This document shows, piece by piece, positions 17,437-59,159 of a stretch of 64,000 bases of DNA (positions within the stretch are counted from its first letter, which is position 1; each line of letters opens with the position of its first letter). The notes under the pieces are model-generated. The model saw only the letters and a program-made list of their open reading frames with translations, did no database searches and had not been told where the DNA came from. This stretch comes from Comamonadaceae bacterium ALPHA2B (GTDB taxonomy: Bacteria > Pseudomonadota > Gammaproteobacteria > Burkholderiales > Burkholderiaceae_C). The DNA is taken from contig SCOE01000007.1 in NCBI GenBank assembly GCA_005503065.1, positions 124,001 through 188,000 on the forward strand. The letters run 5' to 3'. Made by a program: the position numbers and the translations under genes.

Positions 17437-17462
17437 GCCGCCGCCCGACGCGTTCTGCTCCC

Positions 17463-17520
17463 ATTTTCATAGCTGCTTGCGCAGGCGCGGCGGGCGCCGG
17501 GGGCCGATTCGGCCTTGAAA
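17463..17520 (+). repeat. Dispersed 'catagctgc' repeat, intergenic copy
   Basis: Reads 'ttttcatagctgcttgcgc', then a short GC hairpin, then 'ggccgattcggccttgaa'. It shares this layout with copies at 36520, 58947 and, inside genes, 18607 and 25207. It ends exactly at the stop codon of the leftward Ldh2 gene, so it forms that transcript's 3' end. Confidence 0.75.
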
Positions 17521-18666
17521 TCAGCGGCCGACCGCCACGCCCACCTTAGCGCCCGCGGCCACGATCTCGGCCCAGGTCGCGTCGTCCAGCCAGATGCCCT
17601 CGCGCTCGCGCGCCGCACGCGCCCGGCGCTCGGGCTCGCCGGCGATCTGCACGCGCTCGGCGCCCGCGCGCGGCGGACTCTGCTTCAACCAGTCGACAAA
17701 GGCGGTGGCCTCCGCCTCGAAACTGGCTTGCGTGCCGAGCTTCGCCGGATCGATCAGTACGGTGAGCATGCCGTTGAAGACACTGCGCTGGAACATGGCC
17801 CCCACGCTCGCCGCTTCGCGTGTGTCGCTGCCCCCCGAGGGGGCTGCGGCCGCTTGGGGCGGCCCGGCGCGGCCGCTGTCCGCCGGCCGGTGCCAGGTGC
17901 CGCCGCCGGTCAGTGCGCCGCCGAGGAGTTCGCAGGCCACGGCCATGCCGTAGCCCTTGTGCTCGCCGAACGTCATCAGCGCGCCGAAGAGGCCGTTGGA
18001 CTGCGGCACCACGACCACGCCGGGGTCGGTGGTCGGGCGGCCATGCTCGTCGATCAGCGTCCCTTCGGGCACCTGCTCGCCCTTGTTGTAGGCGACGCGC
18101 ATCTTGCCCTGCGCGACGCGGCTGGTGGCGAAATCGAGGACGAAGGGTTCGGCGCCGGCGAGCGGCACGCCGATGCAGCAGGGGTTCGTGCCGAAGCGCC
18201 CGTCGCCGCCGTCCCAGGCCGCCACCACGGGGCGCGACAGCACGTTGACGAAGTGAAGCGACACCAGCCCCTGCGCCACCGCGAGCTCCGCGAAATGGCC
18301 GATGCGGCCCAGGTGGTGCGCGTGGGCCAGCGTGAAGATGCAGCTGCCGACCTCTCTGGCGCGGGCAATGCCCAGCGCCATCGCCTGCACGCCGACGATC
18401 TGGCCATAGCCGCGCTGTCCGTCCATGGCCATCAGCGAGCCGGCGTCGAGGTTCACCTTCACGGCGGCATTGGGCACCAGCCCGCCTTCGGCCACCGCGT
18501 CGACATAGCGCGGCACCATGCCCACGCCGTGCGAGTCGTGGCCGCTCAGGTTGGCCAGCACGAGGTTGTCGGCCACCTGTGCGGCTTCGGCGGGCGCGCT
18601 GCCGGCTGCTATCAAAATGCGAGCTACTTGCGCCCGGAGGACGGGCGCTGCGAGGGTTTTTGGCAT
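17521..18666 (-). CDS. Malate/L-lactate (Ldh2-family) NAD(P)-dependent dehydrogenase with repeat-derived insertions
   Basis: Oxidises a 2-hydroxy acid (malate, lactate, ureidoglycolate or a sugar-acid relative). Family marks are 'SGHDSHGVGM' with the catalytic-site histidine near residue 46, 'AHAHHLGRIGHF', 'GTNPCCIGVPL', 'DFATS' and 'GEHKGYGM'. At 381 residues it is longer than the usual ~330-360. Two stretches are repeat DNA read in frame: residues about 4-22 (18607-18660) and about 262-288 (17806-17878), the latter a Pro/Ala/Gly-rich insert just after 'GGGTWHRPADS'. Reading continues on both sides, so it is not an obvious pseudogene, but activity could be affected. Last gene of the GntR-headed catabolic run. 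Confidence 0.82.
   Translation of the reverse strand: MPKTLAAPVLRAQVARILIAAGSAPAEAAQVADNLVLANLSGHDSHGVGMVPRYVDAVAEGGLVPNAAVKVNLDAGSLMAMDGQRGYGQIVGVQAMALGIARAREVGSCIFTLAHAHHLGRIGHFAELAVAQGLVSLHFVNVLSRPVVAAWDGGDGRFGTNPCCIGVPLAGAEPFVLDFATSRVAQGKMRVAYNKGEQVPEGTLIDEHGRPTTDPGVVVVPQSNGLFGALMTFGEHKGYGMAVACELLGGALTGGGTWHRPADSGRAGPPQAAAAPSGGSDTREAASVGAMFQRSVFNGMLTVLIDPAKLGTQASFEAEATAFVDWLKQSPPRAGAERVQIAGEPERRARAAREREGIWLDDATWAEIVAAGAKVGVAVGR
17806..17878 (-). repeat. GC-rich 'ccccccgaggggg' repeat inserted in frame in the Ldh2 gene
   Basis: The plus strand reads 'cgcttcgcgtgtgtcgctg' then 'ccccccgaggggg' then 'ctgcggccgcttggggcgg'. This resembles a dispersed intergenic element common in Comamonadaceae genomes (from general knowledge; no search was run). 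Here it encodes about 24 extra residues (AGPPQAAAAPSGG and onward) near the C-terminal third of the dehydrogenase. Confidence 0.65.
18607..18660 (+). repeat. Dispersed 'tgctatcaaaa' repeat overlapping the Ldh2 N-terminus
   Basis: The plus strand reads 'tgctatcaaaatgcgagct' then 'acttgcgcccg' and a 'gacgggcgctg' arm, the same layout as the other copies. Read from the other strand it encodes codons about 4-22 of the Ldh2 protein ('LAAPVLRAQVARILIAAG'). Confidence 0.7.
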
Positions 18667-18689
18667 GGGGGCTCCAGGAAATCGGGATC

Positions 18690-18803
18690 GGGCATCCGAA
18701 CGCAGAGGGCGCAGAAGTCACGCGGAAAGCGCAGAGAAATCCTTTTTGAATTTCATTTCTGCGACCTCTGCGAAGCCCTTGCGCCCTCTGCGTTCGGCTG
18801 CCC
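18690..18803. repeat. Inverted-repeat element with 'cgaacgcagagggcgca' arms, copy 1
   Basis: The left arm begins gggcatccgaacgcagag and the right arm ends ctctgcgttcggctgccc. The 19 bases cgaacgcagagggcgcaag/complement pair almost perfectly around a loop with further 'gcgcagag' and 'ctgcgacctctgcg' pairs. It fills most of the gap between the UxaA-family gene and the Ldh2 gene. A second copy lies at 54934-55056. Confidence 0.8.
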
Positions 18804-18821
18804 GTATTCGGAGGTCCGCTG

Positions 18822-24288: not shown

Positions 24289-25284
24289 TCACTTGATGGA
24301 AACGATCCGGTCGTAGTCCTGCTGCCGGTAGCCGTGGTCCGTCGGCTTGGTGTTTTTCAGCACGGCCTCGCGGAAGGCGTTCTTGTCGACCGTGATGACG
24401 TTGTTGCCCTTCTTCTTGAACTCCTCGACCAGGCGGGCCTCCGAAGCGATGATCTCGCGGCCGGTCTTCTCGGCGGCCTCCTGCATCACGTCACCAAAAA
24501 CCTTCTTCTCGTCGGCCGAGAGCTTGCCCCACAGCTGCCCCGACACCACCGTCAGCAGCGAGTCGACGATGTGGCCGGTGAGCGAAATGTTCTTCTGCAC
24601 CTCGAAGAACTTCTTCGCCTCGATGGTGGGCAGCGGGTTCTCCTGCGCATCGACGGTGCCGTTCTGCAGCGCCAGGTACACCTCGGCGAAGGCGATCGGC
24701 GTGGCATTGGCGCCCAGCGCCTTCGGGAAGGCTAGGTAGGCTGGTGCGTCGGGCACGCGGATCTTCAGGCCCTTCATGTCCTCGGGCTTGGCCACCGGTC
24801 GGGCGGCGCTGGAGGTGACGTGGCGCGCGCCGTAGTAGTTCAGCGCCGTGATGTGGTTGCCCGTCTTGTCGTCGTAGCCCTTGGCCAGTTCCTTGAAGAC
24901 GTCGCTCTTCGCGTACTTCAGCTGGTGCTCGGCGTCGCGGAAGATGAAGGGGAAGTACGACACGGCCAGCGGCGGATAGCTGCGCCCCGCGAAGCTGGCG
25001 CCGGTCAGCACGATGTCCACCGTGCCCAGCGTGAGGCCCTGGTTGATGTCGGCCTCCTTGCCCAGGCTCGACGCCGGGAAGACCTGGATGTCGTACTTGC
25101 CGTTGGTGCGCTTCTTGATCTCCTCGGCGGCCCACACCGAGTACTTGTGGAAGGGCTCGGAGGTTTCGTAAACGTGTGCCCATTTGAGCTTGGTTTGCGC
25201 ATTTGCTGTGCCGAAAGTGGCCCCAATGCCCGCCAACAGGGCGCAGGCAGCTATGGTTTTGATAGCGTTTCGCTTGTTCGTCAT
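24289..25284 (-). CDS. dctP: TRAP transporter periplasmic substrate-binding protein
   Basis: 331 residues that capture the solute in the periplasm. A signal peptide (MTNKRNAIKTIAACALLAG and on, cleaved near ANAQ-TK) precedes the DctP fold: 'LKWAHVYETSEPFHKY', 'FPASSLGKEADINQGL', 'GLKIRVPDAPAYL' with the arginine that pairs with a substrate carboxylate, and 'QNGTVDAQENPLPTI'. Most of the signal peptide is encoded by a copy of a dispersed repeat (25207-25266). I start at the ATG at 25284; longer readings cross the GntR gene. Carboxylate ligand, consistent with the sugar-acid enzymes alongside. Confidence 0.93.
   Translation of the reverse strand: MTNKRNAIKTIAACALLAGIGATFGTANAQTKLKWAHVYETSEPFHKYSVWAAEEIKKRTNGKYDIQVFPASSLGKEADINQGLTLGTVDIVLTGASFAGRSYPPLAVSYFPFIFRDAEHQLKYAKSDVFKELAKGYDDKTGNHITALNYYGARHVTSSAARPVAKPEDMKGLKIRVPDAPAYLAFPKALGANATPIAFAEVYLALQNGTVDAQENPLPTIEAKKFFEVQKNISLTGHIVDSLLTVVSGQLWGKLSADEKKVFGDVMQEAAEKTGREIIASEARLVEEFKKKGNNVITVDKNAFREAVLKNTKPTDHGYRQQDYDRIVSIK
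25207..25266 (-). repeat. Dispersed 'gctatcaaaa...catagctgc' repeat used as signal-peptide coding sequence
   Basis: On the minus strand gctatcaaaaccatagctgc is followed by ctgcgcc, a ctgttggcgggc hairpin region and ggggccactttcggc. It aligns with the intergenic copies at 36520 and 58947 along its whole length. It supplies codons 7 to about 26 of dctP. Confidence 0.72.
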
Positions 25285-25319: not shown

Positions 25320-26027
25320 TCAGGAAGCCTTCGCGCGGCGCCAGCTCGCGCTGAATCGTTGGTGCGACTTGTCCATGTGTTCGTGCATCGCGGCGCGGGC
25401 GGCCGCGGCGTCGCGTGCAGCGATGGCGTCGCGGATCGCCTCGTGCTCCGCGATGGCCGATCGCCAGGACTTCACGGTCTCGAAATAGCCGCCCAGGCGC
25501 GTGAAGATCGGCCCCTTGCGCGAATCCCAGAAGCCCTGCACCGTCTCGGCGAGCACCACGTTGTCGCAAGCCTCGACGATGGCCACGTGGAAGGCGCGGT
25601 CGCCCTCCAGCGGCATGGTGTTGCGGTCGGCCAGCTCGCGCATGGTCGCGATGGCGCGTTCGATCGCATCCAGGTGGCTGCGCTTGCGCTGCAGCGCGGC
25701 AATGGCCGCCGTCTCGCCCTCGACCACGCGGCGCGCGCGGATGAGTTCCAGCGGGCCCCATTCGGTCTCGGCCACGGGGGCGCTTGCGCGGTGGCTGCGG
25801 TCCAACACATAGACGCCCGAGCCGGTGCGCACTTCCACCCAGCCCTCGACCTCGAGCGCGATCAGCGCCTCGCGCACCGAGGGCCGGCTCACGCCCAGCT
25901 GCTTCGACAGGTCGCGTTCGGCCGGGAGCCGGTCGCCCACGGCGAACTCGCCTTTCGCGATGAGGTCGCGCAACTGGTCTGCGATCTGCCGGTACAGGCG
26001 TTGGGGTTCGACGGTCTGCAGCGGCAC
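25320..26027 (-). CDS. GntR-family regulator, FadR/FCD subfamily
   Basis: Local transcription factor of the sugar-acid cluster. The winged-helix domain (about the first 75 residues) reads 'LYRQIADQLRDLI', 'GDRLPAERDLSKQLGVSRPSVREAL' in the canonical order. The C-terminal FCD domain with histidine/aspartate metal-site residues ('RAFHVAIVEA', 'SHQRF') binds an organic acid effector. Start is uncertain: TTG 26072 would lie inside the palindrome at 26055-26072, so I prefer GTG 26027, which leaves that palindrome upstream as an operator. Neither start has a clear ribosome binding site. It heads the leftward TRAP operon and is divergent from the SDR gene. Confidence 0.88.
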   Translation of the reverse strand: MPLQTVEPQRLYRQIADQLRDLIAKGEFAVGDRLPAERDLSKQLGVSRPSVREALIALEVEGWVEVRTGSGVYVLDRSHRASAPVAETEWGPLELIRARRVVEGETAAIAALQRKRSHLDAIERAIATMRELADRNTMPLEGDRAFHVAIVEACDNVVLAETVQGFWDSRKGPIFTRLGGYFETVKSWRSAIAEHEAIRDAIAARDAAAARAAMHEHMDKSHQRFSASWRRAKAS

Positions 26028-26054
26028 GGCGGGAGGAAGGGAAGGGATTGCGGG

Positions 26055-26072
26055 TTGTCCTGAATTGGACAA
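26055..26072. promoter_or_regulatory. Operator-like palindrome between the GntR gene and the SDR gene
   Basis: ttgtcc-tgaatt-ggacaa is a perfect 6-6-6 inverted repeat of the form seen for FCD-type GntR regulators (TTGTC...GACAA). An overlapping outer repeat gaattgg...ccaattc ends at 26088. A weak rightward promoter (ttggac 26065, cagaat 26088, 17 bases apart) would be covered by it. Likely site of autoregulation and divergent control. Confidence 0.6.
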
Positions 26073-32282: not shown

Positions 32283-32333
32283 TCCCCACGCGCCAGCGAT
32301 CAGGAATTCAAGCCGAAACCCATGGAGACGCCC

Positions 32334-32768
32334 ATGAAATCTGCGATAGCAGCTATCTTTTTCGTAGCAGTCGCCGGTCCGGCGCTGGCGCAGATGAGCC
32401 CCGTGGGCCTGTGGCGCAACGTCGACGACAAGACCGGAGAGGTCAAGGCCGAGATCCGCATCGCCGACAGCGGCGGCGCGCTGGCCGGCCGCATCGAGAA
32501 GACGCTCAAGAAGGACGCCAAGCCCGACGCCACCTGCGACGAGTGCGACGGCGACCGCAAGGGCAAGCCCATCAACGGCCTTGAGATCATCCGCGGCGGC
32601 GCGAAGGCCGAGGGCAAGGACGTCTGGGAAGGCGGCCGCATCCTCGACCCCGAGAACGGCAAGGAATACCGCGCCAGCTTCACGCCCATCGACGGCGGCA
32701 AGAAGCTGGAGGTGCGCGGCTACCTCGGACCCTTCTGGCGCACGCAGACCTGGACCCGGGTCCAGTAG
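32334..32768 (+). CDS. Small secreted DUF2147 protein
   Basis: 144 residues: a signal peptide (MKSAIAAIFFVAVAGPALA, cleavage after ALA) and a DUF2147 domain with 'GLWRNVDDKTGEVKAEI', 'GRIEKTLKKD', 'CDECDGDRKGKPI' and a C-terminal 'YLGPFWRTQTW'. Two close cysteines (CDEC) may bind metal or form a disulphide. The second ATG (32334) is used because GGAGA sits at the right distance before it. A periplasmic or outer-membrane-facing protein inside a beta-oxidation operon is unusual; its role is unknown. Such proteins recur beside fad genes in this family, from memory. Confidence 0.8.
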   Translation: MKSAIAAIFFVAVAGPALAQMSPVGLWRNVDDKTGEVKAEIRIADSGGALAGRIEKTLKKDAKPDATCDECDGDRKGKPINGLEIIRGGAKAEGKDVWEGGRILDPENGKEYRASFTPIDGGKKLEVRGYLGPFWRTQTWTRVQ

Positions 32769-32793: not shown

Positions 32794-32867
32794 CCGTTCG
32801 CCCCGAGCCTGTCGAAGGGCCAGCCCGCGCACCGGCTTCGACCCTTCGACAAGCTCAGCCCGAACGG
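32794..32867. repeat. Inverted-repeat element 'ccgttcg...cgaacgg', copy 1
   Basis: The left arm ccgttcgccccgagcctg continues to tcgaaggg; the right arm cccttcgacaagctcagccc ends in gaacgg. Arms of ~26 bases pair with few mismatches around a 22-base loop. Same family as 59040-59099, and of a type widespread in GC-rich genomes. It fills the gap between the DUF2147 gene and the FadN-like gene. Confidence 0.8.
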
Positions 32868-32886
32868 CTTCAACACCCACACCACC

Positions 32887-36506: not shown

Positions 36507-36519
36507 GTTGCGGCGCGGG

Positions 36520-36583
36520 TTGCTATTGTTTTCATAGCTGCCTGCGCCCATCCTGCGGGCGTTGGCGCCCGATTCGGCTTGAA
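36520..36583 (+). repeat. Dispersed 'tgctatt...catagctgc' repeat, intergenic copy
   Basis: tgctattgttttcatagctg then cctgcgcc, a catcctgcgggcg hairpin and gcgcccgattcggcttgaa. A good reference copy for the family also seen at 17463, 18607, 25207 and 58947. It lies between fadA and the hydrolase gene, leaving that gene's own AGGAGA ribosome binding site outside. Confidence 0.78.
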
Positions 36584-36619
36584 GGCCAGCGCGCCGGAGG
36601 CGGCGCACAGGAGACGAGC

Positions 36620-43013: not shown

Positions 43014-43020
43014 CTGCAAG

Positions 43021-43081
43021 TTCTGATAAAAATGGCTTGCAGCGCCCGTCCAGCCTGCGTGAGATGCTATCGTTTCAGGAG
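43021..43081. repeat. Dispersed 'gatagcat...gggcgctgc' repeat providing a ribosome binding site
   Basis: Reads ttctgataaaaatggcttgc, agcgcccgtcc, then gatgctatcgtttcaggag. It is related to, but distinct from, the 'catagctgc' repeats. Its last bases AGGAG (43077-43081) lie 8 bases before the GTG of the hydroxyacid dehydrogenase, so the repeat supplies that gene's ribosome binding site. Confidence 0.65.
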
Positions 43082-43089
43082 CATTCCAA

Positions 43090-54889: not shown

Positions 54890-54933
54890 CGTTTGACTCC
54901 TCGTGTTGAACAACCCAATTGGAATGCGGGTGC

Positions 54934-55056
54934 GGGCAGCCGAACGCAGAGGTCGCAAAGGTTGCGCAGAGGTCGCAGAAGAGAAACCCGAAGGAATGAA
55001 TGGATTGCTCTGCGCCCTCTGCGTCACTTATGTCTTCCTTCTGCGTTCGGCTGCCC
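54934..55056. repeat. Inverted-repeat element with 'cgaacgcagag' arms, copy 2
   Basis: gggcagccgaacgcagagg pairs with cttctgcgttcggctgccc, enclosing further 'gcgcagag' and 'ctctgcgccctctgcg' pairs. Same family and size as 18690-18803. It lies between dctM and dctP of the second TRAP operon, where it may shape their relative expression. Confidence 0.8.
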
Positions 55057-58921: not shown

Positions 58922-58946
58922 TGGGCCGTCGTCGGGGCAGCTCGAA

Positions 58947-59010
58947 TGCTATCGAATTCATAGCTGCCGGCGCCCGTGCCACGGGCGCTGGAGGCCGATT
59001 TGGCCTGAAT
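58947..59010 (+). repeat. Dispersed 'tgctatc...catagctgc' repeat, intergenic copy
   Basis: tgctatcgaattcatagctg, ccggcgcccgtgcc, then acgggcgctggaggccgatt and tggcctgaat. The gcgcccgt...acgggcgc arms form a clear hairpin. Follows the metallophosphoesterase stop. Confidence 0.78.
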
Positions 59011-59039
59011 CTGTCTTTGCCTCAGACAACAACCATGAA

Positions 59040-59099
59040 CCGTTCGCGTTGAGCTTGTCGAAACGTCGCACAAGGCTTCGACAAGCTCAGCCCGAACGG
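59040..59099. repeat. Inverted-repeat element 'ccgttcg...cgaacgg', copy 2
   Basis: ccgttcgcgttgagcttgtc(gaa) pairs with (ttc)gacaagctcagcccgaacgg, arms of 23 bases. Same family as 32794-32867. With the preceding repeat it accounts for most of the 238-base gap 58922-59159 before the amidase stop. Confidence 0.8.
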
Positions 59100-59159
59100 T
59101 CGGGGAGAGGTCTGAGACAGGTCCATGGTGAGGCCATCTGGCTTGAAAATTCGGCCTGA

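Follow-up and report, generated by a model that had tools for sequence, protein, structure and literature searches.

The 64,000-nucleotide stretch of Comamonadaceae bacterium ALPHA2B analysed here (the window, part of genome G000) raises the question of how the start of a protein-coding gene, dctP, comes to coincide with one copy of a dispersed repeat. The initial annotation had proposed that codons 7 to about 26 of this gene are such a copy, alike along its length to intergenic copies near 36520 and 58947, and that a mobile-type repeat had here been turned into, or captured as, a secretion signal. The features concerned are listed in Table 1.

Table 1. Genes and repeat copies in the window, with scores of the repeat model R1.
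Feature	Position	Strand	Evidence and remarks
dctP, TRAP-type solute-binding protein, including stop codon	24289..25284	-	ORF; ATG at 25284
GntR/FCD regulator gene directly upstream of dctP	25320..26072	-	ORF, Pfam
Inferred signal peptide MTNKRNAIKTIAACALLAGIGATFGTANA	25198..25284	-	Translation; peak 11-residue hydropathy 2.32
dctP copy	25201..25271	-	Sense, frame 0; codons 7 to about 26; R1 49.7 bits, E 6.6e-13
Intergenic copy, best in window	58943..59013	+	Behind stop codon; R1 78.0 bits
Intergenic copy	36517..36587	+	Just behind stop codon; R1 72.8 bits; present in G002, G013
Intergenic copy	17452..17522	+	Just behind stop codon; R1 51.7 bits
DUF2147 copy	32303..32373	-	Antisense to gene; R1 27.1 bits, E 4.6e-6
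DUF2147 gene, predicted exported	32334..32768	+	PF09917 5.5e-28; ORF
Ldh_2 copy	18603..18673	+	Antisense, over first codons of Ldh_2; R1 26.9 bits, E 5.3e-6
Ldh_2 gene (malate/L-lactate dehydrogenase family), non-exported	17521..18666	-	PF02615 9e-103; ORF
Weaker copy	43017..43087	-	Between stop codon and next gene start; R1 21.0 bits, E 3.4e-4

As defined from 30 exact copies, the repeat, an element of Comamonadaceae-like genomes, is about 62 bases long, starts with GCTATN6CATAGC, and has a GCGCCC...GGGCGC palindrome in its middle. The covariance model R1 was built from 42 copies (alignment A1), with the signal-peptide copies then known excluded, a few of the training copies (e.g. L008, L018, L021, L023, L029) lying within genes or at their borders; its calibration was short, so the E-values are rough. 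R1 matches at least 150 copies in the 6.0-Mb genome, and the repeat core occurs, with one mismatch allowed, at 148 places, against none for the reversed pattern. The sense frames of the repeat differ in their coding potential. In frame 0, 39 of the 42 copies lack a stop codon and the product is hydrophobic, with a mean peak 11-residue hydropathy of 1.08 and the peptide pattern A-I-x-x-I-A-A-x-A; frame 2 is open in 28 and is hydrophilic (mean peak -0.40), and frame 1 is open in none.

When R1 was scored at every position of the window, the dctP copy ranked fourth with all 71 model positions aligned, so that both its identity as a repeat copy and its likeness to the two intergenic copies, which match the same model, are borne out. 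An exact core, GCTATN6CATAGCTGC, stands at 25247-25266; however, the core alone with three mismatches allowed gives 10 matches where 3.6 are expected, and the evidence therefore lies in the full length and not in the core. The gene is a clear member of its family (PF03480 DctP, 3.6e-72, 243.5 bits against a cut-off of 23.4), and 53 bases separate the stop codon of the upstream regulator from the repeat core. Residues 1-29 of DctP are predicted from the sequence to comprise a basic n-region (KR), a hydrophobic h-region and a small-residue site, with cleavage probably before the Q that follows the A-N-A motif; the repeat encodes the hydrophobic core of this putative signal peptide, as had been proposed, and the same pattern appears in other exported proteins. 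The DUF2147 gene had likewise been thought to carry the repeat in the other orientation, which it does; the copy there spans the leader, the Shine-Dalgarno sequence, the ATG and the first codons (MKSAIAAIFFVA). Two further repeats were seen in the window. Another dispersed repeat, with TTCGACAAGCTCAGCCCGAACGG, lies at 32800-32870 behind DUF2147 and at 59040-59110 near the 58943 copy, and a near-identical inverted repeat (CTCTGCGTTCGGCTGCCCG...) is present at 18689-18804 and 54933-54986, 89 percent complementary over 54 bases.

The usual place of the repeat is immediately behind a stop codon, in either orientation. This was established with 99 copies of G000, comprising the 30 exact-core loci, the window copies and 60 stretches, 52 of them from the low end of the R1 match list and eight from the one-mismatch core list. 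The flanking genes of the 96 copies with enough flank are co-directional in 52 cases, convergent in 22, divergent in 3 and ambiguous in 19. Of the 50 copies with a sense gene upstream, 44 have its stop codon between -16 and +30 bases; for antisense genes the corresponding range, -6 to +41, holds in 47 of 58. The repeat core's own TAG forms the stop codon of the upstream gene in seven of the 50 sense cases (L002, L144, L158, L169, L180, L190, L196). The copies at 17452 and 36517 are missing at the matching sites in the sister species G008 and G010 and are present in G002, and copies thus come and go.

The description of the repeat as mobile-type is partly sustained by the absence of these two intergenic copies from sister species, but alignments with the sister species at the two sites show no clear target-site duplication, and no transposase was found for the repeat. 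The palindromic core is internal (columns 6-22), and the ends of the repeat are not complementary by eye. Rfam gave no matches above the gathering score in the window. The 5-bp core stem is invariant, without covariation (RNAalifold included), and a three-hairpin scheme pairs no better than shuffles (86.2 versus 85.9 percent), with covariation as high in 71 of 500 shuffles. A RAYT was considered as mobiliser; PF01797 is present in 27 of 29 genomes, including 11 of the 13 non-carriers as well as carriers, and because it does not track the repeat this explanation was rejected. Twenty PF01797 loci have at most weak repeat copies nearby. The RAYT-like Y1 transposase gene is usually single-copy (G000:C44:140694-141020 and 26 other genomes, loci L281-L300), and is flanked by motifs of its own, GGGGTCAGATTCCAATT / GGAATCTGACCCC and TGTCCCC.

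About 15 protein families were found to have a copy at the 5' end of the coding sequence. Among the 99 G000 copies such overlaps involve dctP, DUF2147, Ldh_2, BamB (L195), SIMPL (L198), an outer-membrane efflux protein (L023), a deaminase (L199), a sulfate permease (L149) and probably PrmC (L029, start uncertain); the gene calls rest on a home-made codon score, and, L195 having been picked for its dctP-like core, nine in 99 is not a clean rate. In four of the nine (dctP, DUF2147, BamB and SIMPL) the copy lies within the predicted export signal itself. A pattern of Shine-Dalgarno sequence, ATG and core has 16 matches in 15 of the 399 family genomes. Seven of these matches are genuine genes that read the repeat in sense frame 0, and every one is of an exported type: three DctP (L078, L083, L084), HlyD (L072), Peripla_BP_6 (L075), TctC (L080) and one unnamed (L074). 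The remaining matches, nine in number, are unconvincing as gene starts, and there was no convincing frame-2 case in these 399 genomes; an antisense control pattern gave two matches, one inside a gene and the other with a copy that is actually sense. A contig scan yielded 22 loci, adding LolA (L060) and DUF1289 (L056). Altogether, nine families have a copy that makes up the whole or a part of a segment resembling an export signal: DctP, SIMPL, LolA, Peripla_BP_6, HlyD, TctC, BamB, DUF2147 and one unnamed. In nine exported cases the captured copies have peak hydropathies of 2.15 to 3.00, above the average copy, which suggests that the peptides were refined after capture.

In BamB the antisense copy is at the same place in three genera, scoring 30.6 to 54.9 bits in G000, G002, G010, G013 and G008, 20.1 in G144 and 18.9 in G177, against at most 11.1 bits in non-carriers. 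Counting genomes with measured repeat content (G006, G007, G009 and G011 being left out), a repeat-like start is seen in seven of eight bearers and none of seven non-bearers for BamB, and in five of eight and none of seven for DUF2147.

Other captures do not concern exported proteins: Ldh_2, the deaminase L199, the sulfate permease L149, probably PrmC L029, and DUF1289. The start codon of the sulfate permease is seemingly the ATG of the antisense core GCTATG. Copies also lie apparently in frame within genes at L019, L021 and L202 (asparaginase, outer-membrane efflux protein and NAD(P)H-hydrate dehydratase); two of these three may sit at a boundary between domains. Because cytosolic and membrane proteins have taken up copies and some copies are internal and in frame, the repeat is not a dedicated secretion signal; export appears, from the predicted signals, to be a frequent outcome of 5' capture and not the sole one. 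Of the proposal that the repeat was captured as a secretion signal, the dctP case thus stands, as an old rather than a recent event (see below), but the repeat is equally found at the 5' end of non-exported proteins and within genes. Nor do sense captures all use frame 0: in L023, read in sense frame 2, the hydrophobic run comes after the copy. L018, L150 and L155 are better read as leader copies; L113 and L139, initially taken as gene starts, were dropped, as were L076 and L073, judged by eye to be out-of-frame readings.

Homologues of dctP were found in 15 of 80 relatives at E 1e-60 and in 69 of 399 family genomes at E 1e-100, and their signals were compared with the repeat content of the host. 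A comparison with dctP genes from lineages lacking the repeat had been proposed at the outset, and repeat-like signals are almost never seen there: among 58 genomes they occur in 14 of 18 repeat-bearing ones (15.4 to 56.4 bits) and in one of 40 with few or no repeats (G168, 28.4 bits), with a Fisher value of 4e-9 that ignores kinship. A repeat-like signal is one of at least 15 R1 bits, non-bearers have 10 or fewer model matches and bearers 15 or more at E 0.001, these cuts having been chosen after the data were seen; G002, G010 and G013 are bearers by a strict pattern instead, with 47, 26 and 46 copies. G136 and G237 count as non-bearers without a match although the anchor gave no mature start in them. 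Left out of the counts were G014, whose dctP segment is identical to that of G010, second dctP paralogues (e.g. L046 in G026, 10.1 bits), G001 and G012 (without a dctP passing the cut), and G158 (no dctP match listed). A concordance that had been perfect at 14/14 versus 0/13 fell to the present figures on wider sampling, the bearers without a repeat-like signal being G155 (12.3 bits), G110, G023 and G261 (no match). Every bearer row tested has the copy at the same offset and in the same frame (mature start -83). Several non-carriers have a similar peptide in GC-rich codons (AVKTLAACALMAGALG in G436, TLKTIAACALMASAIG in G179), and this retention in ordinary codons suggests that the dctP capture is old rather than recent.

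The reading that we favour, and hold to be very probable, is that a repeat normally found behind stop codons has become 5' coding sequence, once and anciently in dctP and separately in other genes. Where the next gene starts close by, a start codon upstream of or inside the copy would turn it into 5' coding sequence, as is seen for the genes listed above. The hydrophobic run of frame 0, preceded by a few basic residues and followed by a small-residue site, would then serve as a Sec signal peptide, to judge from the sequence. For dctP, capture would have occurred once, before several genera split; the peptide would have persisted while its DNA drifted from repeat-like to ordinary codons, chiefly where the repeat family was lost. 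Other genes would have taken up copies separately, in either orientation.

A different history for dctP is that gene conversion from other copies has repeatedly overwritten the signal, its repeat-likeness being renewed and not inherited. The mature proteins of 40 homologues give a tree on which the repeat-like label needs nine changes, at least five of them forced by well supported branches; G144 and G436, for example, are sisters, with 136 versus 3 repeats and signals of 40.2 versus 10.3 bits. That likeness follows repeat content over at least five changes, and in the counts above, is what such renewal predicts. However, G023, G261 and G110 are rich in repeats with a dctP signal that is not repeat-like, and the segment shows no elevated codon identity: among carriers it is 0.62 against 0.70 for the mature gene, and between carriers and non-carriers 0.41 against 0.73. 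We regard recurrent overwriting as unlikely, and single ancient capture as the better account of the dctP copy.

Codons rich in AT are frequent early in genes, and together with a common signal-peptide motif they could have produced the likeness of dctP by chance; part of the motif does persist without the repeat, as in G436 and G179. Evidence on this point comes from synonymous recoding at a fixed offset with the same peptide, which separates DNA likeness from amino-acid likeness. None of 5000 recodings of the G000 segment with genome-like codons reached the observed R1 score, and none of 5000 with uniform codons, which already permit AT-rich choices; the match of dctP to the repeat therefore exceeds amino-acid likeness. 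With genome codons, z is at least 3.1 in 13 of 14 repeat-bearing dctP rows and ranges from -0.3 to 2.7 in 11 non-bearer rows. The exception is G008 (z of 1.5), a genome with 101 repeat matches and a dctP signal of only 18.0 bits, which failed the test (354 of 5000). Third-position GC in the G000 dctP is 0.58 in the signal and 0.93 in the mature part, and 0.83 to 0.96 in the signals of 11 non-bearer rows; the difference between bearers and non-bearers persists at a mature GC3 of at least 0.92. Since the likeness also spans the whole model and tracks the repeat content of the host, not codon usage, chance convergence is very improbable, and capture of a repeat copy is again preferred. The reverse origin, in which the family arose from DNA encoding a signal peptide, as in dctP, and spread from there, would account for dctP copies in many lineages and old branches but is the least credible of all, given that copies lie mostly behind stop codons in both orientations, that frame 1 is always closed, and that the gene copies of G251 and G158 resemble the local intergenic variant, which fits a passage from repeat to gene.

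Several known elements are comparable with the repeat captured here. The RU-2 / YPAL element forms part of the signal peptide of Yersinia YPO1552 and is a MITE (Delihas 2007, PMC2759123; review PMC2229807). RU-2 is 168 bp long with MITE features, and one main signal-peptide case is discussed (PMC2759123, PMC2229807); the present element, in contrast, is about 62 bp and occurs in many conserved proteins, in both orientations and across genera. The Rickettsia palindromic elements (RPE) are similarly dispersed, palindromic and in frame in conserved proteins, but are 105-146 bp long and reported as insertions within genes, whereas the repeat here is usually at the 5' end with some copies internal (PMC2229807). 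In Polaromonas naphthalenivorans the motif pair ATAGCT(N)22CAAAAG has about 125 copies, 101 intergenic and 34 between convergent genes, with six overlapping a gene start or end, and shares the ATAGCT half-core (PMC5217627). It may be the same element, although the spacing differs, the exact spacing was not found in the sequences examined, and its description, as far as available, gives it no coding role (PMC5217627). The beta-proteobacterial repeat element BRE is also dispersed in Comamonadaceae, mostly intergenic with some copies within genes, but is described as about 90 bp and often tandem (PMC3110155). In the open-access literature searched, no account of signal peptides derived from the present repeat was found, which is weak evidence of absence.

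It is possible, if doubtful, that coding copies have a dual use, the repeat system holding the signal segments of dctP, BamB and others at repeat-like, rare codons that relax once the family is lost, for example through a factor, confined to carrier genomes, that binds or converts the copies. The codon identities among carriers, lower in the segment than in the mature gene, show no excess of synonymous conservation and, like the weak dctP signal of G008, argue against strict maintenance. The relation between the repeat content of a genome and its signal-peptide codons is a testable puzzle, and the question is opened of how far a random intergenic copy is from a usable export signal. Capture of copies from behind stop codons offers a concrete and recurrent mechanism through which repeats that do not code would become a working part of conserved proteins, including those of outer-membrane assembly (BamB, LolA).
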